Shown: positions 1,664 to 11,950 of the stretch, piece by piece
How the letters are laid out: each line of letters starts with the position of its first letter
Position numbering within the stretch: position 1 is the stretch's first letter
NCBI RefSeq assembly: GCF_002078605.1
Contig: NZ_MSJR01000003.1
Span: 248,001-312,000, forward strand
Source: Salegentibacter sediminis
Lineage (GTDB): Bacteria > Bacteroidota > Bacteroidia > Flavobacteriales > Flavobacteriaceae
Length of the DNA: 64,000 nucleotides
Reading direction: 5' to 3'
Notes under the pieces: generated by a model
What the model was told of the DNA's origin: nothing
Database searches by the model: none
What the model saw: only the letters and a program-made list of their open reading frames with translations
Position numbers and translations under genes: made by a program

Positions 1664-1707
1664 CTGACTGCCGTCATATTTGGCTGCGGACTTTCTCTAT
1701 AATTTTA
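1664..1707 (+). promoter_or_regulatory. Fnr-like operator and -7 element before the universal stress gene
   Basis: TGAC-TGCC-GTCA occupies 1665-1676 (centre 1670.5) and a -7-like TAATTTTA lies at 1700-1707. The operator centre is 36.5 bp before the last base of the -7 element, close to the -41.5 position of class II Crp/Fnr activation. The same 15-mer (CTGACTGCCGTCATA) occurs on the opposite strand before the yceI gene near 7.3 kb. Confidence 0.7.
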
Positions 1708-1730
1708 CCACAAATTAGAAAAGGAAATCC

Positions 1731-2495
1731 ATGGCCATTAATATAGTAATCTTAACCGATTATTCTGCACATGCTTATAATGCAGCTAAATATGCCCTGA
1801 ATTTACCCGGTGTTGCCTCAAATTTTTACATTTTACACGCCGGCGATTCAAACAAAGAGGGCCTTGATGCTTGCATCGAAAAGCTTCGTAAAGAAGCTAC
1901 AGCTGACGGCCATAAATTTCATGCAATCCTGAAAAATGATAATTTGATTGATGCCACACGAAAAGTTGTGGCCGAAAAGGATATTGATCTTATAGTTATG
2001 GGCGCGTCGGGCAGAAGCTCCGATCAAATTAAAGGTATTGGGACTAACACTTATAATGTGTTGAGAAAGGTGAAATGTCCCGTACTTACCGTTACCGAGA
2101 ACCAGGAATTCAAAGCCTGGGAAAACCTGTTCTTCCCAATTGATTATTCAGTAATGTTGCACGGCGATATGCTGGATGTGTTTAAAAAGTTACCCTTGTT
2201 GGCAGCTTCAGTTTTCAATGTGTGGGAGATAAACGGCAATAATCAAAACGGAAATCAACTTGGTGTAATTCGTCAGGAATTAAATACCAGGTTGAGCCCC
2301 AGAGCTGTTAACTTTAATACCATCGATCCAAATACCCAACTTGGCGGGCAATTCTGGAAGGATGCTAAATCTTCTGCAAATCTTGTCGTGCTTATGGCGC
2401 GAAACCTGAAGATTTCAGATATATTGTTGTTGCATCCTCCCATACAAAATGGGGCGCAAGCCTCAAGACCGCCAATATTGATCCTTCACGGATAA
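1731..2495 (+). CDS. Universal stress protein, UspA-type, tandem-domain length
   Basis: The N-terminal half is a Usp alpha/beta fold: it starts with INIVILTDYSAHAYNAAKYA, has the ribose/ATP-loop-like segment LIVMGASGRSS at about residues 89-99, and continues with a VLRKVKCPVLTV strand. The C-terminal half (about 130-254) looks like a second, degenerate Usp domain ending in PPILILHG and lacking a clear glycine-rich loop. The 254-residue length fits the two-domain cytoplasmic Usp proteins of Bacteroidota. These bind nucleotides and help survival in energy or redox stress, but a precise reaction is unknown. An Fnr-like operator sits 60 bp before the start, suggesting activation by the adjacent receiver-Crp regulator. 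Confidence 0.85.
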   Translation: MAINIVILTDYSAHAYNAAKYALNLPGVASNFYILHAGDSNKEGLDACIEKLRKEATADGHKFHAILKNDNLIDATRKVVAEKDIDLIVMGASGRSSDQIKGIGTNTYNVLRKVKCPVLTVTENQEFKAWENLFFPIDYSVMLHGDMLDVFKKLPLLAASVFNVWEINGNNQNGNQLGVIRQELNTRLSPRAVNFNTIDPNTQLGGQFWKDAKSSANLVVLMARNLKISDILLLHPPIQNGAQASRPPILILHG

Positions 2496-2534
2496 AAAAG
2501 TTTCATTCATTTTAGAATAAAACGAAATTAGCCC

Positions 2535-2566
2535 CAAAAAACCTGTTCTATAGAGCAGGTTTTTTA
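2535..2566. terminator. Bidirectional intrinsic terminator
   Basis: AACCTGTTC-tata-GAGCAGGTT forms a nine-pair stem (one G-T) flanked by A6 on the left and T6 on the right. It serves both the plus-strand stress gene and the minus-strand globin gene, which converge here. Confidence 0.88.
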
Positions 2567-2587
2567 TTTTTTATGGAAGCGCTAATT

Positions 2588-2971
2588 TTAGTTTCTTGAC
2601 TGGAAGATTTTCAGGTACAGGTGGGTAGACATTTTCCTGGCGTTATTTTTTGCGCGATTAGCCAATTCTCCCTCAAAGAGTTCATCTATGGTTTCAAACC
2701 ATAGGTTAAGCCATACTCCAAAATGTTCAGAAGATATCTTGTGGTCATTTTTCTGATCTACTTTTACATGAGCCTTTTGTGGGTTTCCACGGTAGACACC
2801 TTTGAAGAAAAGATTACTCTCCCAGAAATCTGTAAGCTTGTCCAGGTGTTCATCCCAATCTTCTATAGATTCATTGAAAAAATATCCAATTTCAGGATTC
2901 TTGCGTACTTTGGAATAGAACCGGGAGATGAGGGTAAATACATCTTCCCGATTTTGAATGTCATTCCTCAT
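2588..2971 (-). CDS. Group III truncated hemoglobin
   Basis: The 127-residue protein has the compact alpha fold and sequence of group III (trHbP) globins: an N-terminal FYSKVRKNPEIGYFF segment, the distal region DKLTDFWESNLF, and the proximal-histidine stretch SEHFGVWLNLWFETID. Such globins bind O2 or NO under microaerobic or nitrosative conditions; the ligand here is not shown by sequence. The start codon lies 3 bp after the stop of the upstream 93-residue membrane gene, so both are probably translated from one mRNA driven by the Fnr-like promoter at 3282-3328. Low-oxygen or NO-responsive expression would fit. Confidence 0.9.
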   Translation of the reverse strand: MRNDIQNREDVFTLISRFYSKVRKNPEIGYFFNESIEDWDEHLDKLTDFWESNLFFKGVYRGNPQKAHVKVDQKNDHKISSEHFGVWLNLWFETIDELFEGELANRAKNNARKMSTHLYLKIFQSRN

Positions 2972-2974
2972 TGC

Positions 2975-3256
2975 TTAGATAATATTTATTAGGATAAAGA
3001 TTATGGAGACTGCTAAGCTAAGGATTAATGCATTAAGGATGATCTTTGGTTTAAATTGAGCGAGAATAACGGCGTTAAACCCCATACAAACGCTTACTAC
3101 GGCAAAGAGTTGCAACATATCCAGAAATCCGTGGCCCTGCATTAAAATAAGCATGGCAGCCACTGAGCCCAGACAACTGGAAGCGATAATTCCAATGGTA
3201 GAATAGCCCAGGGGCATTTCTTTAAAATCTGCAAGCAGGTTGTTGTAAAGTTTCAT
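2975..3256 (-). CDS. Small membrane protein, probably three transmembrane helices
   Basis: I do not recognise a named family with certainty. The 93 residues contain three hydrophobic stretches (about 19-41, 45-63 and 71-92) and few charges, so it is an inner-membrane protein. It is the first gene of a two-gene unit with the truncated globin (gap 3 bp), and the promoter carries an Fnr-like operator centred 62 bp before the ATG. The pairing suggests a role in respiration or oxygen/NO handling, but no catalytic or heme-binding motif is obvious. Function unknown. Confidence 0.75.
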   Translation of the reverse strand: MKLYNNLLADFKEMPLGYSTIGIIASSCLGSVAAMLILMQGHGFLDMLQLFAVVSVCMGFNAVILAQFKPKIILNALILSLAVSIIFILINII

Positions 3257-3281
3257 TTTAGTGATTTTTTAGATTAGGGCA

Positions 3282-3328
3282 TAAAATTAGCCTGCTTACT
3301 GCCGGATACTTATGACTTAAATCATAAG
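3282..3328 (-). promoter_or_regulatory. Fnr-like operator and -7 element before the globin operon
   Basis: The perfect inverted repeat CTTATGA-N6-TCATAAG covers 3309-3328 (centre 3318.5); its core is TGAC-TTAA-ATCA. On the minus strand a -7 element TAATTTTA lies at 3289-3282, identical to that of the universal stress promoter, and the spacing from centre to end is again 36.5 bp. Confidence 0.7.
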
Positions 3329-3339
3329 TAAGAAATAGA

Positions 3340-3370
3340 AAAGCCCGGAAACTACAGGTTCCCAGGCTTT
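3340..3370 (-). terminator. Terminator after the CoA-hydrolase gene
   Basis: AAAGCC(C)GGAAAC-tacag-GTTCC(CA)GGCTTT folds as a stem with a small bulge, 23 bp after the stop of the minus-strand acetyl-CoA hydrolase gene. It insulates that operon from the globin promoter immediately beyond. Confidence 0.7.
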
Positions 3371-3392
3371 AAGGCTAAAAATTACAAGGTTT

Positions 3393-4670
3393 TTATTTCC
3401 TGAATCTTAAAAAAGTTTCCTTTTCCAGGGCTTCCCGGTGATCGGGATGGGCGATGGAGATTAAGGCTTTTGCCCGTTGTTTTAAGTTTTTTCCGTAGAG
3501 ATCTACTACACCATATTCGGTGGCTATGTAATGCACGTGGGCCCGGGTAGTAGTTACGCCTGCTCCTTCTTTAAGATATGGTACAATCTTGGAAATTCCT
3601 TTTGCGGTCACCGAGGGCATGGCGATAATAGGTTTTCCGCCTTCTGAAAGTGAGGCCCCGCGAATAAAGTCCATTTGGCCGCCTACTCCCGAGTATTGAT
3701 ATTTGCCTATAGTATCGGCGCAAACCTGCCCGGTAAGATCTATTTCCAGAGCACTATTTATGGCTGTTACTTTTGGATTCTGGCGTATTATAGCAGTATC
3801 ATTGGTGTAGCCTGCTTCCTTAAAATGAACTATGGGGTTATCGTCAATAAAATCGTAAAGTTTTTGTGATCCCAGTGCAAAACAGGTCACTATTTTTCCC
3901 GTTTTAATCTCTTTCATTTCGCCGGTAATTACCCCCGACTCTACCAGTGGCAGGACTCCTTCTGAAAGCATTTCGGTGTGTATTCCCAGACGTTTGTGGT
4001 TTTTAAGATTGTTCAATACCACATTTGGGATTCCGCCAATCCCCATTTGTAGGGTGGCCCCATCTTCAATAAGCCCTGCAACGTGCTTTCCGATTTGGGT
4101 TTCAACTTCGGTGGGTTCAGGAATATTCAATGCAAATATTGGATGATCTACCTCGCAGGCAGCATCAATATTGCTGATGTGAATGTTTCCATCGCCGTGA
4201 CTCCTTGGTACCTGAGGATTGATTTGGGCAATTACTTTCTTTGCGGTTTGTATTGCCGGAAGTGTTATGTCTACAGAAACTCCCAGGGAGCAATAGCCGT
4301 GCTTATCTGGCGGAGAAACCTGTATGAAAGCCACATCCAGGGGTAAAATGTTTCTTCTGAAAAGCAAATGCATTTCACTTAAGAATATAGGGATATAGGC
4401 GCCAATAGAAGAATTAACCGCCTCTCGCACATTCCCGGCTACAAAACAGCTGTTGGTGACAAAAGAATCGCTAAAAGGTTTTTTAGTGTATTTAGCATTT
4501 CCTTCGGTATGAATTTGTATGATCTCAACCTCACTTAATTCCTTGTGTCTATCACTTAAAGCATCTATCAAAACGTTTGGTGTCATTGCAGCTCCCTGAA
4601 AAAATACACGGTCGCCCGATTTAACTACCGAAACGGCTTCAGTTGGAGAGACTATTTTGAGGTTGGTCAT
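3393..4670 (-). CDS. Acetyl-CoA hydrolase / class I CoA-transferase family protein
   Basis: The 425 residues match the acetyl-CoA hydrolase/4-hydroxybutyrate CoA-transferase family along their whole length. Visible signatures are the glycine loop MGIGGIPN in the middle, the catalytic glutamate E309 in NSALEIDLTGQV that forms the glutamyl-CoA intermediate, the loop YSGVGGQMDFIRGA, and the C-terminal ATEYGVVDLYGK. The enzyme moves CoA between acyl-CoA and acetate or another acid; the acceptor cannot be read off. The start lies 3 bp after the stop of a YceI-like gene, forming a two-gene operon. Acetate-CoA exchange next to a low-oxygen-type regulon suggests overflow or microaerobic carbon metabolism, which is inference. 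Confidence 0.9.
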   Translation of the reverse strand: MTNLKIVSPTEAVSVVKSGDRVFFQGAAMTPNVLIDALSDRHKELSEVEIIQIHTEGNAKYTKKPFSDSFVTNSCFVAGNVREAVNSSIGAYIPIFLSEMHLLFRRNILPLDVAFIQVSPPDKHGYCSLGVSVDITLPAIQTAKKVIAQINPQVPRSHGDGNIHISNIDAACEVDHPIFALNIPEPTEVETQIGKHVAGLIEDGATLQMGIGGIPNVVLNNLKNHKRLGIHTEMLSEGVLPLVESGVITGEMKEIKTGKIVTCFALGSQKLYDFIDDNPIVHFKEAGYTNDTAIIRQNPKVTAINSALEIDLTGQVCADTIGKYQYSGVGGQMDFIRGASLSEGGKPIIAMPSVTAKGISKIVPYLKEGAGVTTTRAHVHYIATEYGVVDLYGKNLKQRAKALISIAHPDHREALEKETFLRFRK

Positions 4671-4673
4671 ATT

Positions 4674-5252
4674 TTAGGCTTTTATATTAAGTTTGAAATT
4701 AATGTTTATTTCTTCTTCGATTACAATTAACCCAAACATTTTGCTTGGAGCTTCAAGATCGAAATCTTTGATGTTTAACGCCAGGTTTCCTTCAAAACAA
4801 AGTTGATCATCGCCGGTAAGTCTTACCGGGAAACGATAATTTTTATTCTTTCCTGCAATTTCAAAATTTAAAGTGACATGAGCATTCTGCTTGTCGTCCA
4901 TTTCTATTTGTTGGATTTTAAGAAGTATTTCCGGATGCTTTTCGGTTTTGAGGAGCTCTCGAAAGTCTTTGTTAATTCGTCTGTTTCCGCAGTCAAAATT
5001 GGTATTCTTTAAAGGAAGAATGCTATTTCTGAAATCAAGGATGTCGCCTTTAGAAGAAAAGTGAACGGTAATGCTTTGTTCTTTAAACCGAATAGTATTG
5101 AAGTCGCATTCAAATTCACTGATATTAGTATTTCCGGAAATACTTAAACTGCTCTCGGGCAGGATTTCTATTTCACGGGTTTCCACATTGGGTTGAGCAA
5201 AACCTGCCAAACTTGAGATCAGAAGACTAAAAAATAACAGGTAGGTTTTCAT
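4674..5252 (-). CDS. YceI-like periplasmic lipocalin-fold protein, divergent
   Basis: A signal peptide (MKTYLLFFSLLISSLAGFAQ) precedes a 170-residue domain with the YceI pattern: FECDFNTI, then a central ILLKIQQIEMD strand, FEIAGKNKNYRFPVRLTG, and a C-terminal EAPSKMFGLIVIEEEININF where conventional members read PPTAMFG...G. YceI proteins form a beta barrel binding isoprenoid-like lipids in the periplasm. This copy is more divergent than the one at 6704-7276. It is the first gene of the unit with the CoA-transferase. No TGAC-N4-RTCA operator was found in its upstream region, which also contains the terminator of the porin gene. Confidence 0.8.
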   Translation of the reverse strand: MKTYLLFFSLLISSLAGFAQPNVETREIEILPESSLSISGNTNISEFECDFNTIRFKEQSITVHFSSKGDILDFRNSILPLKNTNFDCGNRRINKDFRELLKTEKHPEILLKIQQIEMDDKQNAHVTLNFEIAGKNKNYRFPVRLTGDDQLCFEGNLALNIKDFDLEAPSKMFGLIVIEEEININFKLNIKA

Positions 5253-5331
5253 TTTTTCTTTTTTTGCAATTTTTATAAAAATAAAGTATCATTATAATAT
5301 AGCGAAATCCTTGCCAAAATGATATAAAAAA

Positions 5332-5368
5332 CCCCGGGATAACCTTTATTTAAGGTTAAATCCCGGGG
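5332..5368 (-). terminator. Terminator after the porin gene
   Basis: CCCCGGGAT-AACCTT pairs with AAGGTT-aa-ATCCCGGGG around a short AT loop. On the minus strand it is followed by a T5 tract. It closes the yceI-porin operon. Confidence 0.88.
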
Positions 5369-5379
5369 CCACTCTCAAC

Positions 5380-6678
5380 TTAGAAGCTTATTGCCGCCTC
5401 AAGCGTAATTCCATTGAATTGTCCTCCAGCGTGAATGTCTCCTACTGGGTAGTCGCTATATTCCTGATTAACATACTCTAATTTTGCCAGTATGTTTTTA
5501 GTCATAAACCAACCTGCACCTAATTGGAAACGGTTTACAGATACTTCTTGTGTATCGGTAAGTTCACCATTTACGTTACTGAAACGTCCACCAAGGTAGA
5601 AATCTTCTTTAGCACCAAATCTGTATAGAAGTTCACCTGCAAGATGAGTATAGTTTCTTGTGTCAGCTTCTCCTTTGTTTTTTCCACTAGTAGTTTCAAA
5701 GATTCCAAAGAACTCAAGTCCACCATACTTTAAGAATGGGTTGATCATAATAGAAGTCATCTCGTTCTTGAAAGAAGTAGCGATACGACCACCTTTATAA
5801 GTGTCTCCCTCTCCATCAACATCGGTCATTACGTTGTAGTAACGTGTACCTGCACGGTCACCGCTGTAAAGGTAGTTTCCACGAGCATAGTTATGTCCAC
5901 TGTGGAAGAGAGAACCTGTTAATCTGAATCTAAAATCTTCAGTGATTTGGTTGTCATATCCAAGTTTAGCAAGGAAAGATGGATCGGTTTCTCCGTCACC
6001 CTTTGTAGATTGGTTCAATTTACCGTTGGTAAATCCTAACATACCTAACCAGGGGCCGTTGAACATATAAACTTCAGCACCAACTTCTGTAGTAAAACTA
6101 TCCATTAGGTAGTTACCTACGAATGGGTTGTGAAGTGCGTGAGCGTTATCTGTTCTTCTGAAGTGAGCATCACCATAGTTGTTCTCCATGTGACCAATCT
6201 TGATTCTCATGTGATCCATAAGACCTTGTGCAAATCCTTCGCTAATGAAGTCTAATTTGTCAATCTGGATATAACCACCTTTTACGTAAGCCTCAGTGTG
6301 GTGTTGAGAAGAAAGATAAGTTCTTAAGTGCATTCTCACCCCGTCGTAAAGCAATACATCAAGGTCTAGGTTGGCAGTTGCCAGGTTAAAGTTTCCTTCT
6401 AGTTCTGGAAGGGTATTCAAGTCATTTTCATGTTCTAAAGACTGGAACTGGATGGTAGAAGCTCCACCAACTCTTACCTGTACACCATCAAAATAAGTTT
6501 CGGTGTCTTTAGGGGCTTCAAAATCATTGATGCCACGTAGGTCTGGATCTCTGAAGTTAGGAAGGTCTCTATCCCAAATAGTTTTGTTTTGTTCTTCTAC
6601 CTCAACTTCTTGTGCCTGAGCCTGAAAGCCCAGCGCCATTATAAGCGCGATTCCTGAATATTTAATTAAATTTTTCAT
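5380..6678 (-). CDS. Outer-membrane beta-barrel porin-like protein
   Basis: A typical signal peptide (MKNLIKYSGIALIMALGFQAQAQ) is followed by about 410 residues rich in alternating polar and aromatic strands, ending in LEAAISF, whose terminal phenylalanine is typical of Bam-inserted barrels. Repeated strand-turn units such as FRFRLTGSLFHSG and DFYLGGRFSNVNG support a 16-18 strand barrel. I cannot name its substrate. It follows a YceI-like gene by 25 bp and ends at a strong terminator, so the two form one operon under the Fnr-like operator near 7.34 kb. A general or small-anion channel used under redox stress is possible but unproven. Confidence 0.82.
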   Translation of the reverse strand: MKNLIKYSGIALIMALGFQAQAQEVEVEEQNKTIWDRDLPNFRDPDLRGINDFEAPKDTETYFDGVQVRVGGASTIQFQSLEHENDLNTLPELEGNFNLATANLDLDVLLYDGVRMHLRTYLSSQHHTEAYVKGGYIQIDKLDFISEGFAQGLMDHMRIKIGHMENNYGDAHFRRTDNAHALHNPFVGNYLMDSFTTEVGAEVYMFNGPWLGMLGFTNGKLNQSTKGDGETDPSFLAKLGYDNQITEDFRFRLTGSLFHSGHNYARGNYLYSGDRAGTRYYNVMTDVDGEGDTYKGGRIATSFKNEMTSIMINPFLKYGGLEFFGIFETTSGKNKGEADTRNYTHLAGELLYRFGAKEDFYLGGRFSNVNGELTDTQEVSVNRFQLGAGWFMTKNILAKLEYVNQEYSDYPVGDIHAGGQFNGITLEAAISF

Positions 6679-6703
6679 TTTTTTAATTGTTTAATTGGAT
6701 TGA

Positions 6704-7276
6704 TTATTTAGTAAAATTTGTAGTGAATTTAATAGTTACTTCCTCCCCAGTGGTAATGGTTCCGAACATAGCAGTAGGAGGGTCTACTTTGTAATCGGTC
6801 ATATTTAGCGTTTTTTCTCCAGAAATCTTGATCGTATTTCCGTTAACGCTCATCGTGAAATCAAGTGGGATTTGCTTAGTAGCCCCAGAGATCTTTAAGG
6901 TGCCAACACCTTTTACTTTATAAGTATTGTTTCCGGCATCCTGGAAATCTTTTACCTGGTCCAGTTTAAACTCTATGTTTTTGTACTTGTTTGTGTTTAA
7001 AGCCTTATAGGTGTTTTTGTCCATTCCACCTTTACCGCTTTTTAAACTTTCAGCCGGGATGGTTACCTGTAAACTTTGAAGGCCGGTAATTTTACCGTCT
7101 TCAGATTCCAAAACAGCACTACCGGATTTTTGTTCGGCATCTAATTCCCAATCGTGAATATTTGATGTTCCTTCAACTTTGATATCGGAAGAGGATTGCA
7201 ATTTAAAATTCTGACTTTGAGCTGTGCCTACTACAAAAAGAAATAGTACTAGTGCGATTGATATTGAACTTCTCAT
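6704..7276 (-). CDS. YceI family periplasmic protein
   Basis: A signal peptide (about 21 residues, ending GTAQSQ) precedes a full YceI domain. It has the characteristic GTSNIHDWELDAE near the start, LKSGKGGMDKNTYKALNTNK in the middle, VKGVGTLKISGATKQIPLD, and the signature DPPTAMFGTITTGEEVTIKF at the end. Length (190 aa) is normal. YceI proteins bind long isoprenoid chains in a lipocalin-like pocket and are induced by stress or alkaline pH in other bacteria. It starts an operon with the porin-like gene 25 bp downstream, and an Fnr-like operator lies 61 bp before the ATG. Confidence 0.92.
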   Translation of the reverse strand: MRSSISIALVLFLFVVGTAQSQNFKLQSSSDIKVEGTSNIHDWELDAEQKSGSAVLESEDGKITGLQSLQVTIPAESLKSGKGGMDKNTYKALNTNKYKNIEFKLDQVKDFQDAGNNTYKVKGVGTLKISGATKQIPLDFTMSVNGNTIKISGEKTLNMTDYKVDPPTAMFGTITTGEEVTIKFTTNFTK

Positions 7277-7300
7277 GACATTAGGTTTTTAAGTTTGGTA

Positions 7301-7344
7301 CAAAGTTGGGGCAGAATTCCTACAGAATTTATGACGGCAGTCAG
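7301..7344 (-). promoter_or_regulatory. Fnr-like operator and -7 element before yceI-porin
   Basis: TGAC-GGCA-GTCA lies at 7332-7343 (centre 7337.5), the exact reverse complement of the operator before the universal stress gene. On the minus strand a -7-like CAACTTTG covers 7308-7301. Centre-to-end spacing is 36.5 bp, as at the other two sites. The rest of the 286-bp gap up to ftsX shows nothing I can name. Confidence 0.68.
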
Positions 7345-9539: not shown

Positions 9540-11950
9540 TTATTTCCGTTTTCCCCGCCCAGTTCTATCATGCTAAAATTTTCATCGATTTGCATAGTAA
9601 TACATCCATTATGATGCAAGTGCTCTAAAGATTTGGTTTCGTTATCCAGCTGTATGTTTTTGATCTCAAAGGGAAGTCCATGGATTTGCAATTTGAATTT
9701 TTTGCAATCACTTTCAAAAGTTCCGTCTTTATGCTGCTGAATTACCAGTTGGTTTTTCCTTCCGGTTAGTTTAAAACTTCTAAGACAGAAGCGCCCTTTG
9801 GCATAATCGTAACCATCCTGTGCATCTTCGAAAAACTGAGAATCTTCCTTGCCTTCTTTATAGTAAATGTCTAAAATCACTTCCTCGATCACTTTTTCAC
9901 CCACATATTGCTGCACCGGATATTTTGGAATGATGGCTCCTTCTTTAATGAATACCGGCATACTATCAATATCGGCATCAACCCACATTTCTTTTCCGCC
10001 TTTCACCACTTCATCGGTCCAGTGGTTGTACCAGTTTCCACGCGGAATATACATTCTTCTTCCTTTGGCGTTAGGCTCCTGAACCGGACAGGCAAGAATA
10101 CTATCACCAAAAATAAATTCATCTATTCGGTAATGGGTGTTCACATCTTCCTGGTCAAACATTACCAGCGATTTGATTAAAGGCACACCCTTCTCGGTAT
10201 AGTCCCAGAAAGCGGTATATAAATAGGGCAGCAATTGATAGCGTAATTCAATGAATTTCCGAACGATATCCGTAACTTCTTCTCCAAACGTCCAGGGTTC
10301 CTGTTCCCCGTGATCTCCCGAAGAATGCACTCTAAAGAAAGGGTGAAAAGTTGCCAGCTGAATCCAGCGTGTAAAAAGCTCGCCCTGGGGTTGCTCGGCA
10401 AAACCACCTACATCGCTGCCGGCAAACGAAAAGCCCGACATTGCAAGGCGCTGTACCTGCACATTGGCGATCCATAAATGTTCCCAGTTCGCGATGTTAT
10501 CGCCCGTCCAGGTTGAGGTATAGCGCTGTGTCCCCGAATAGGCCGCTCTGGTGATCACAAAAGGTCGTTTTGGATGTGAAAATTTCTTCACGCCCTGGTA
10601 GGTGGCCCTGGCCATCTGCATTCCATAGATGTTGTGGGCTTTTCTATGGCTGCAGGGATTCCCGTCGTAGTCGTGACGAACATCATGAGGAAAAGTTTTA
10701 TTCGGAACTTCCATCACCGCGGGCTCATTCATATCGTTCCAGATTCCTTTAACCCCAATCTCTTCGATTATTTCCTTGAATAATCCAGACCACCATTCCC
10801 TTACTTCAGGTTTGGTGAAATCGGGGAAGTAACATTCGCCCGGCCAAACTTTTCCTTTGATGTAAGGCCCGTCGGCGCGTTTGCAGAAATAATCATTTTC
10901 CAGGCCTTCCATAAAAACCCAATAATCTTTATCGATTTTAATCCCGGGATCTATGATCGCCACGGTTTTAAAACCATCTGCTTCCAGTTCTTTTACCATT
11001 CGTTTTGGATCGGGGAAATACTCTTTGTTCCAGGTAAAACACCTGAACCCTTCCATATAATCAATGTCCAGGTAAATGGCATCACAAGGAATTTGCAATT
11101 CTCTGAATTTAGAAGTGATTGCTTTTACTTTGCTTTCAGGGTAATAACTCCATTTACACTGGTGAAATCCTAAGGCCCAAAGTGGCGGTAGATCTGGTTT
11201 TCCGGTTAGATCAGTGTAATATTCAACCACATCGGTCATTTTAGGGCCGTAGATGAAATAATAATTCATCTCGCCGCCTTGCGCCCAAAAACTAGTAACA
11301 AATCGCCGTTCCTGCCCGAAATCAAAAAAGGATCTAAAGGTGTTATCAAAGAAAATCCCGTAGGCCTTATTATTGTGAAGCCCGGAGTAAAACGGAATGG
11401 TTTTATAAATTGGGTCGGTATCTTTTCCGTAGGCATAAGAATCGGTCACCCAATTCTCGAAGCGTTTGCCTTTTAAATTTAGATGTCCCGGTTTGTCGCC
11501 CAGCCCAAAATAACTCTCCCCATCGTGTGAGACCTTGCTCATTTTCACGATGTCTCCACCAAATTCATAACTTTCTTCCCAATGAAAACCAAGTTCATCT
11601 TCGTTGATCAATGTCCCGTCTGCACGATCATAAATTTTTATTTTCAGATCTTTTTTAGAGACTTCACTTATAATCTTGGAAGTGGTAATGCTATAATACT
11701 CCTCCTCTTCTTCAATATCTAACTGATTGTAGCCAATGCTGGCGAATTTCGTTATGGCATAAGAGAAATCGTTAGCAAATCTACCGGTGGTGGAATATCG
11801 AAATCGCAACAAACCATCCCTAAGAACTGTGATTTGTAAGGCAACATCATTTTCTGTTGTAAAATAAAGCCTGTCAACATCTTTGTGAAAAGAAATTATT
11901 CCAGAAGGAAAGACATTTCCTTTTTGTTCTAACTCGGTATTGGTGATCAT
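9536..11950 (-). CDS. Glycoside hydrolase family 31 alpha-glucosidase
   Basis: The 804 residues show the GH31 order: an N-terminal beta-sandwich with ESYFGLGDKPGHLNLKGKRF, then a catalytic barrel with PPLWALGFHQCKWSYYPE, the nucleophile D406 in IWNDMNEPAV, and TWTGDNIANWEHLWIANVQV and AGSDVGGFAEQPQGELFTRW nearby, and C-terminal beta domains. No signal peptide is seen, so it should act in the cytoplasm on maltose-like oligosaccharides or glycogen-derived chains. It is the last gene after glgA-glgC-glgB on the same strand, 110 bp beyond glgB, suggesting a role in glycogen turnover. The ATG at 11950 gives a normal N-terminus. Confidence 0.93.
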   Translation of the reverse strand: MITNTELEQKGNVFPSGIISFHKDVDRLYFTTENDVALQITVLRDGLLRFRYSTTGRFANDFSYAITKFASIGYNQLDIEEEEEYYSITTSKIISEVSKKDLKIKIYDRADGTLINEDELGFHWEESYEFGGDIVKMSKVSHDGESYFGLGDKPGHLNLKGKRFENWVTDSYAYGKDTDPIYKTIPFYSGLHNNKAYGIFFDNTFRSFFDFGQERRFVTSFWAQGGEMNYYFIYGPKMTDVVEYYTDLTGKPDLPPLWALGFHQCKWSYYPESKVKAITSKFRELQIPCDAIYLDIDYMEGFRCFTWNKEYFPDPKRMVKELEADGFKTVAIIDPGIKIDKDYWVFMEGLENDYFCKRADGPYIKGKVWPGECYFPDFTKPEVREWWSGLFKEIIEEIGVKGIWNDMNEPAVMEVPNKTFPHDVRHDYDGNPCSHRKAHNIYGMQMARATYQGVKKFSHPKRPFVITRAAYSGTQRYTSTWTGDNIANWEHLWIANVQVQRLAMSGFSFAGSDVGGFAEQPQGELFTRWIQLATFHPFFRVHSSGDHGEQEPWTFGEEVTDIVRKFIELRYQLLPYLYTAFWDYTEKGVPLIKSLVMFDQEDVNTHYRIDEFIFGDSILACPVQEPNAKGRRMYIPRGNWYNHWTDEVVKGGKEMWVDADIDSMPVFIKEGAIIPKYPVQQYVGEKVIEEVILDIYYKEGKEDSQFFEDAQDGYDYAKGRFCLRSFKLTGRKNQLVIQQHKDGTFESDCKKFKLQIHGLPFEIKNIQLDNETKSLEHLHHNGCITMQIDENFSMIELGGENGNN

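Follow-up and report, generated by a model that had tools for sequence, protein, structure and literature searches.

Known oxygen-responsive circuits and the Salegentibacter locus

The closest described relatives of the system considered here are the FixL-FixJ-FixK cascades of alphaproteobacteria, in which, according to the cited sections of PMC4999443 and PMC7888657, FixJ induces fixK, and FixK and FnrN share TTGAT-N4-ATCAA "anaeroboxes"; in the hFixL-FxkR-FixK arrangement of Rhizobium, which wires the same sensing logic differently, fixK is induced by the separate protein FxkR (PMC7888657, cited section). We describe here a 64-kb stretch of the genome of the marine bacterium Salegentibacter sediminis (contig NZ_MSJR01000003.1, positions 248,001 to 312,000 of the forward strand; "the window" means this whole stretch, and positions are counted from its first base). 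Its left end encodes part of a FixL-like histidine kinase and the whole of a response-regulator receiver fused to a FixK-like Crp/Fnr protein, and three promoters close by carry a Crp/Fnr-type dyad at a single fixed distance from the -7 box. These promoters belong to a class that extends throughout the Flavobacteriaceae, and the receiver-Crp fusion is the best candidate for the protein that reads them.

The locus is like the FixL-FixJ-FixK system, as the cited sections of the two papers present it, in having a haem-PAS-like kinase, a receiver and a FixK-like Crp/Fnr protein without iron-sulphur (Fe-S) cysteines, in the presence of cbb3 maturation genes and hemN among the predicted targets, and in the position of target genes near the regulator. 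It is unlike it in that receiver and FixK-like part are a single chain, so that nothing corresponds to the transcription of fixK by FixJ and there is no separate FixK induced by FixJ or FxkR; in that C or A mostly stands in place of the outer T of TTGAT; and in its Bacteroidota -7 promoter and the occurrence of usp, globin and yceI among the targets. FNR and FnrN, Crp/Fnr proteins that sense oxygen directly, also have TGA-type half-sites, and a stand-alone relative with cysteines at positions 4, 7 and 29 probably shares the sites described here, much as anaeroboxes are common to FixK and FnrN (PMC7888657, cited section), but the fusion has only a single Cys. Class II CRP/FNR promoters, in which the dyad is centred near -41.5, likewise have it at one fixed upstream distance, in the -35/-33 region (a predicted position in our case), whereas the present sites have in addition a strongly directional T after the downstream half-site.

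The cited sections of PMC9723704 report a cbb3 oxidase induced under oxygen limitation in another flavobacterium; the paper uses the term TAnnTTTG, and a word search of its main text found no word beginning with Fnr or Crp. Flavobacteriales Crp/Fnr homologues are placed near MalR, a different reading, in the cited section of PMC8510549. Among the open-access papers listed in our searches (subscription papers lay outside them), no title or abstract describes this fusion or operator class.

Three operator-promoters with one spacing

The window contains three TGAY-N4-RTCAT dyads that each lie exactly 23 bp upstream of a Bacteroidota-type -7 box. Upstream of usp, the operator TGACTGCCGTCA (1665–1676, + strand, centre 1670.5) is followed by the box TAATTTTA at 1700–1707; upstream of the globin operon, TGATTTAAGTCA (3313–3324, - strand) is followed by the same box, TAATTTTA, at 3282–3289 (read 3289–3282); and upstream of the yceI-porin cluster, TGACTGCCGTCA occurs again (7332–7343, - strand, read 7343–7332, centre 7337.5) and is followed by the box CAACTTTG at 7301–7308 (read 7308–7301). 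The usp and yceI-porin operators have 15 bp in common (CTGACTGCCGTCATA, on opposite strands), while the globin operator is TGACTTAAATCA at 3313–3324, lies inside CTTATGA-N6-TCATAAG, and reads as TGATTTAAGTCA only in the direction of the globin operon. The dyad centre is a fixed 36.5 bp from the end of the -7 box, and is 60.5, 62.5 and 61.5 bp from the first ATG of usp, the globin operon and yceI-porin, respectively. A first-pass annotation of this DNA had described these dyads, -7-like boxes and spacings (36.5 bp to the end of the box and about 60–62 bp to the ATG), and its description is confirmed in the sequence.

TGAC-N4-GTCA by itself is found twice in the window, compared to a mean of 0.40 in shuffled sequences (4 of 100 shuffles reach 2), and genome-wide it is not enriched (14 places versus 23 for the reversed control), so the spacing had to enter the pattern. 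The window has three copies of the composite of dyad, 23-bp gap and -7 box, whereas shuffled sequences average 0.013 and none of 300 reaches three. We note that two more TGAC-N4-RTCA matches in the window, at 10674 and 51489, are missed by the composite pattern and are probably due to chance.

The S. sediminis genome as a whole has 64 matches to TGA-N6-TCA-N23-TANNTT versus 12 for the reversed control, which indicates that some of the 64 are chance matches; the strict form gives 26 matches and its control none. The "local regulon" that had been proposed for the three sites is therefore not borne out, since the class is genome-wide and, as described below, family-wide.

Conservation among related loci

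Relatives of the fusion were confirmed at least 574 times in named genomes, and we examined the loci of the best 80, all from Flavobacteriaceae and together 1.63 Mb. In these, TGAC-N4-RTCA is followed by TAnnTT[TG] 84 times at a gap of 23 bp, 7 times at 24 bp and 0 to 9 times at every other gap from 0 to 44; the looser TGA-N6-TCA form gives 329 sites at gap 23, 36 at gap 24 and 7 to 28 at the other gaps tested (10 to 39). The 329 gap-23 sites are spread over 79 of the 80 loci, and the first start codon is 50–69 bp from the dyad centre in 276 of the 317 that have a downstream open reading frame (12 of the 329 have none). The base 5' of TGA is C in 201 sites, A in 95, T in 21 and G in 12, and the TGAY-N4-RTCA core fits the FixK anaerobox TTGAT-N4-ATCAA. 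A T follows the downstream half-site in 319 of the 329 sites, and only 95 have an A at the mirrored position, which shows the promoter element to be directional although its core is a dyad.

Individual sites are also kept at their places. In 78 of the 80 loci (L094 and L107 are the exceptions) the fusion gene is followed by a site no more than about 420 bp away; a site is also present upstream of the membrane protein-globin operon in all 23 loci that have the operon, and upstream of yceI-porin in 12 of the 13 loci that have that cluster (L107 again lacks it); the unusual yceI-porin box CAACTTTG is retained in 10 of these 13 relatives and a close form of it in 2. The first-pass annotation had named loss of the sites before orthologous genes as a result that would refute its idea, which survives, and its view of them as operator-promoters of the Crp/Fnr superfamily type with the nearby fusion as candidate reader is supported by their conservation. 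Sites are densest close to the fusion gene, at 0.376 per kb over the first 2 kb, and their density is 0.122, 0.149, 0.104 and 0.073 per kb in the bins at 4, 6, 8 and 10 kb, a fall that is not quite steady.

The receiver-Crp fusion and the neighbouring kinase

The fusion (P0001; 595–1644, + strand) consists of a receiver, a cyclic nucleoside monophosphate-binding fold and a Crp-type helix-turn-helix. Its membership in the Crp/Fnr superfamily is indicated by PF00027 (60.3 bits) and PF13545 (49.5 bits), both above cut-off, and the response-regulator receiver by PF00072 (106 bits). Receiver residues D9, D10, D52 (the presumed phospho-acceptor), S82 and K104 and recognition helix residues E315, I318 and R319 are invariant in all 80 relatives; the Glu/Arg recognition pair that had been reported as kept in the fusion is thus universal among them. 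The only Cys is at position 51, in the receiver, so the protein is not an Fe-S sensor of the FNR type, which has an N-terminal cysteine cluster, and it has the FixK trait of lacking Fe-S cysteines. The positions of CRP Arg82, Ser83 and Glu72, which we take to be the cyclic AMP contact residues, are occupied mostly by Tyr (71 of 80), by variable and by variable residues, respectively, and cyclic AMP control of the fusion was rejected because these contacts are not kept. FixK is the top Crp/Fnr-type NCBIfam model among the matches listed, at 69.7 bits versus 68.5 for CRP.

The C-terminal part of the kinase gene is at 3–542 on the + strand, and the gene (C16:247310-248542 of the S. sediminis genome; L155:7310-8542) extends leftward out of the window, where its PAS domain is encoded, which is why the first-pass annotation missed it. 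The best PDB match of the PAS domain is FixL (2.6e-18), a haem-binding kinase that oxygen inhibits, with DosP following the FixL entries. All 80 loci have a relative of the kinase, and 79 of these, above a 300-bit cut, were aligned (L056, whose kinase ends at the contig end, was left out); the FixL haem-ligand His is aligned in 77 of the 79 and an Arg 20 residues further on in 75, positions that we take to be the haem ligand and distal Arg of FixL. The His-Arg pair occurs in none of the about four usable control rows (L189, L190, L192 and L196), a partly usable control in that 10 of 22 other PAS_9 matches in the genome aligned to the kinase-PAS profile and about four of these span, by eye, most of the His-Arg stretch. 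The fusion and the kinase look likely to work like FixK and FixL.

A second receiver-Crp fusion, 48% identical to the first, is encoded elsewhere in the same genome (C12:387218-388249, - strand; L156:13212-14252) within a dense cluster of such promoters that includes several usp genes, hsp20 and a TerB-like gene, and by reading no kinase gene adjoins it. Behind the usp run of this cluster, L156:6276-8491 encodes metallo-beta-lactamase/beta-CASP-like and ATP-cone-like proteins (names by reading).

Distribution of sites and regulators in the family

In 299 genomes of the family, we scored a genome as passing if its strict sites number 6 or more and exceed three times its control. The fusion is present in 138, which have a median of 20 strict sites (6–67; control median 1), and 137 of these pass. 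Seven genomes with only a weak relative have a median of 3 sites and one passes, and the 49 with neither regulator have a median of 2 sites and four pass, two of the four being incomplete genomes (G147 and G238; 73% and 82%). Forty fusion genomes without an extra stand-alone match have a median of 16 sites (6–37; control 0.5), a set judged by match numbers with one probe at E 1e-10 that may still hold distant Crp/Fnr proteins. Beyond the family, 22 of 38 matching genomes have the fusion.

Stand-alone relatives shorter than 300 residues and above 70 bits are near the fusion in 7 of the 80 loci, and all seven have Cys 4, 7 and 29; judged by coordinates alone, at least 10 of the 138 fusion genomes have a stand-alone relative no more than about 1.2 kb from the fusion. 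In G059, which has no fusion match, a Cys4/7/29 FNR-like gene is near genes that by reading are ccoS-, hemN-, usp- and TerB-like and that carry the same composite, and its recognition helix, E-S-A-I-R, has an E-x-x-I-R pattern in common with the E-T-L-I-R of the fusion in the window. The sites probably have other readers besides the fusion, since 77 of the 105 genomes that lack it but have a stand-alone Crp/Fnr relative also carry the promoters. An FNR-like protein of the stand-alone, N-terminal-cysteine type probably reads the same sites, and does so by itself where there is no fusion. The stand-alone protein of S. sediminis itself (L176) has the helix E-T-V-N-R and no N-terminal cysteines, and so belongs to a different branch from the Cys4/7/29 type. 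The promoter of its own gene (C1:762594-763292, - strand) carries the composite, TGACATTTGTCA, which recalls fnrN under FixK in rhizobia.

Predicted regulon and gene neighbourhood

Genes behind sites in the S. sediminis genome were named by reading the sequence stretches that follow them, 20 of which were scanned against Pfam. They encode HemN, FixS/CcoS, NhaA, NuoA (Oxidored_q4), POR-type oxidoreductases, a 4Fe-4S protein, NadA and cytochrome c; universal stress proteins (one of several was scanned), HPF (S30AE), Hsp20 and hemerythrin; and MlaE, a phosphoribosyltransferase, an AMP-binding ligase and the stand-alone Crp/Fnr protein. Near the fusion in the 80 loci the sites precede Usp (129 sites), TerB-like (37), CcoS (27), globin-operon protein (23), HPF (15), HemN (6) and Hsp20 (6) genes, family names that were read from the sequences, with Pfam backing for the S. 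sediminis members only and TerB-like by reading alone. Three protein families without a certain name (clusters c1, c4 and c6; 37, 20 and 9 sites) recur behind the promoter class and are candidates for new low-oxygen functions.

In the window, the + strand carries the kinase, fusion and usp genes in that order, the universal stress protein being encoded at 1731–2495. The globin operon, on the - strand, begins with a gene for a small membrane protein of 93 residues (2975–3256), to which we give no family name and for which a Pfam scan gave no match, and its second gene encodes a group III truncated haemoglobin (2588–2971; phmmer match 2ig3). The yceI-porin cluster, also on the - strand, has genes for a first YceI-family protein (6704–7276), a porin-like protein (5380–6678; "porin" is the first-pass name, and the LbtU siderophore-porin model matches it only weakly, at 21.6 bits of 90), a second YceI-family protein (4674–5252) and, at its end and presumably cotranscribed, an acetyl-CoA hydrolase/transferase family protein (3393–4670). 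Among the matches listed, the nearest named relative is Salegentibacter flavus, whose regulator is 94% identical.

Proposed circuit and alternatives

The residues kept in the fusion, together with a FixL-like PAS domain that has the His and Arg, lead us to propose the following route. The soluble kinase encoded upstream of the fusion would sense low oxygen through its FixL-like haem-PAS domain and phosphorylate Asp52 of the neighbouring fusion, which would then bind the dyad as a dimer by means of its Crp-type helix-turn-helix (Glu315, Ile318 and Arg319). There it would contact RNA polymerase in the manner of class II, at about -40 from the start provided that the -7 box lies where its name implies, and so replace a -33 element. 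Its targets would be genes of high-affinity respiration and haem (ccoS, hemN and cytochrome c), the globin, low-redox enzymes (POR and the ferredoxin-like protein), universal stress proteins, ribosome hibernation and Hsp20. The same sites would be read, in parallel or alone, by a stand-alone protein of FNR-like type that has three cysteines near its N terminus. The three sites in the window would then be members of a Flavobacteriaceae-wide, activator-dependent promoter class, roughly A-n-C-TGAY-N4-RTCAT-N22-TAnnTTTR. We put the probability of this explanation as a whole, a collapsed FixL-FixJ-FixK cascade with class-II-type activation from that promoter class, at about 70%.

Several results weigh against this proposal. 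The 80 loci are related (16 of them are Aquimarina by title), so their counts are not independent events. The kinase (114.2 bits) is far under the NCBIfam FixL equivalog cut-off of 850 and the fusion (69.7 bits) far under that for FixK, 300, and, as FixK is only about 1 bit above CRP, we do not assign the proteins to either of these families. The yceI, porin, MlaE and GH130-type targets are not obviously low-oxygen genes. In the S. sediminis genome a second fusion and a stand-alone homologue could also read the same sites, and 105 genomes of the family with no fusion but with a stand-alone Crp/Fnr relative (E <= 1e-20) have a median of 10 sites, 77 of them passing. In genomes outside the family, presence of the fusion is no guide to the number of sites: 140 sites (18 in the control) were counted in 22 genomes that have it and 58 (7 in the control) in nine that do not, these nine being only those without a match listed by name. 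Co-occurrence of the spaced sites with the fusion, which the first-pass annotation had suggested as a check, holds in the family for genomes with the fusion as compared to those with neither regulator (137 of 138 versus 4 of 49), and fails outside the family and in the 77 genomes just mentioned. Finally, none of the 80 loci has a site before the kinase-fusion operon itself, from about 300 bp before to 120 bp into the kinase frame; autoregulation of that operon by this promoter class was considered and rejected on the same count.

The alternative that survives best is that operators and fusion are as proposed and the kinase senses another cue (redox state, nitric oxide or another PAS ligand), so that the regulon is one of energy limitation or general stress. 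The prominence of universal stress, Hsp20 and HPF genes among the targets would fit this, and haem cannot be demonstrated from sequence; but FixL and DosP lead the PAS matches, the His and Arg are kept, and HemN, CcoS/FixS, POR and cytochrome c are targets that fit low oxygen, so we consider it unlikely. It is rather more doubtful that the sites are operators only of stand-alone Crp/Fnr proteins, either FNR-like with cysteines or of the L176 type, and that the fusion has other targets. The 77 genomes that keep the promoter class without a fusion, and the composites and E-x-x-I-R helix of the Cys4/7/29 protein in G059, are as this idea predicts, but it is weakened by the forty genomes that appear from the one-probe search to have the fusion alone and that still have 6–37 sites, and by the peak of site density beside the fusion gene with a site directly behind it in nearly all loci.

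Crp/Fnr proteins can also act as repressors, and we infer rather than observe the direction of control here, but occlusion of the promoter is improbable given a position upstream of the -7 box that is fixed to 1 bp, which fits contact activation, and given the directionality of the element. That the three promoters are alike by chance can be dismissed, in that although the dyad alone is not rare, the shuffles of the composite and its conservation in relatives already refute this.

Returning to the collapsed cascade, we lean slightly towards a wider view in which, across the Flavobacteriaceae, a cascade of the rhizobial type has collapsed to a two-protein circuit on whose hard-spaced promoters a cysteine-bearing FNR-like regulator, sharing the fusion's recognition-helix pattern, converges, so that kinase-relayed and direct oxygen sensing would share one promoter class. 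With a class marked by so simple a pattern, a low-oxygen regulon can be predicted in hundreds of genomes; the class also points to a candidate sensor and regulator, and it ties uncharacterized families to that regulon, including the small membrane protein before the globin, the TerB-like family and YceI-porin. If the fusion works as proposed, it would represent a cascade shortened by domain fusion, without a transcriptional relay between the kinase and its targets.

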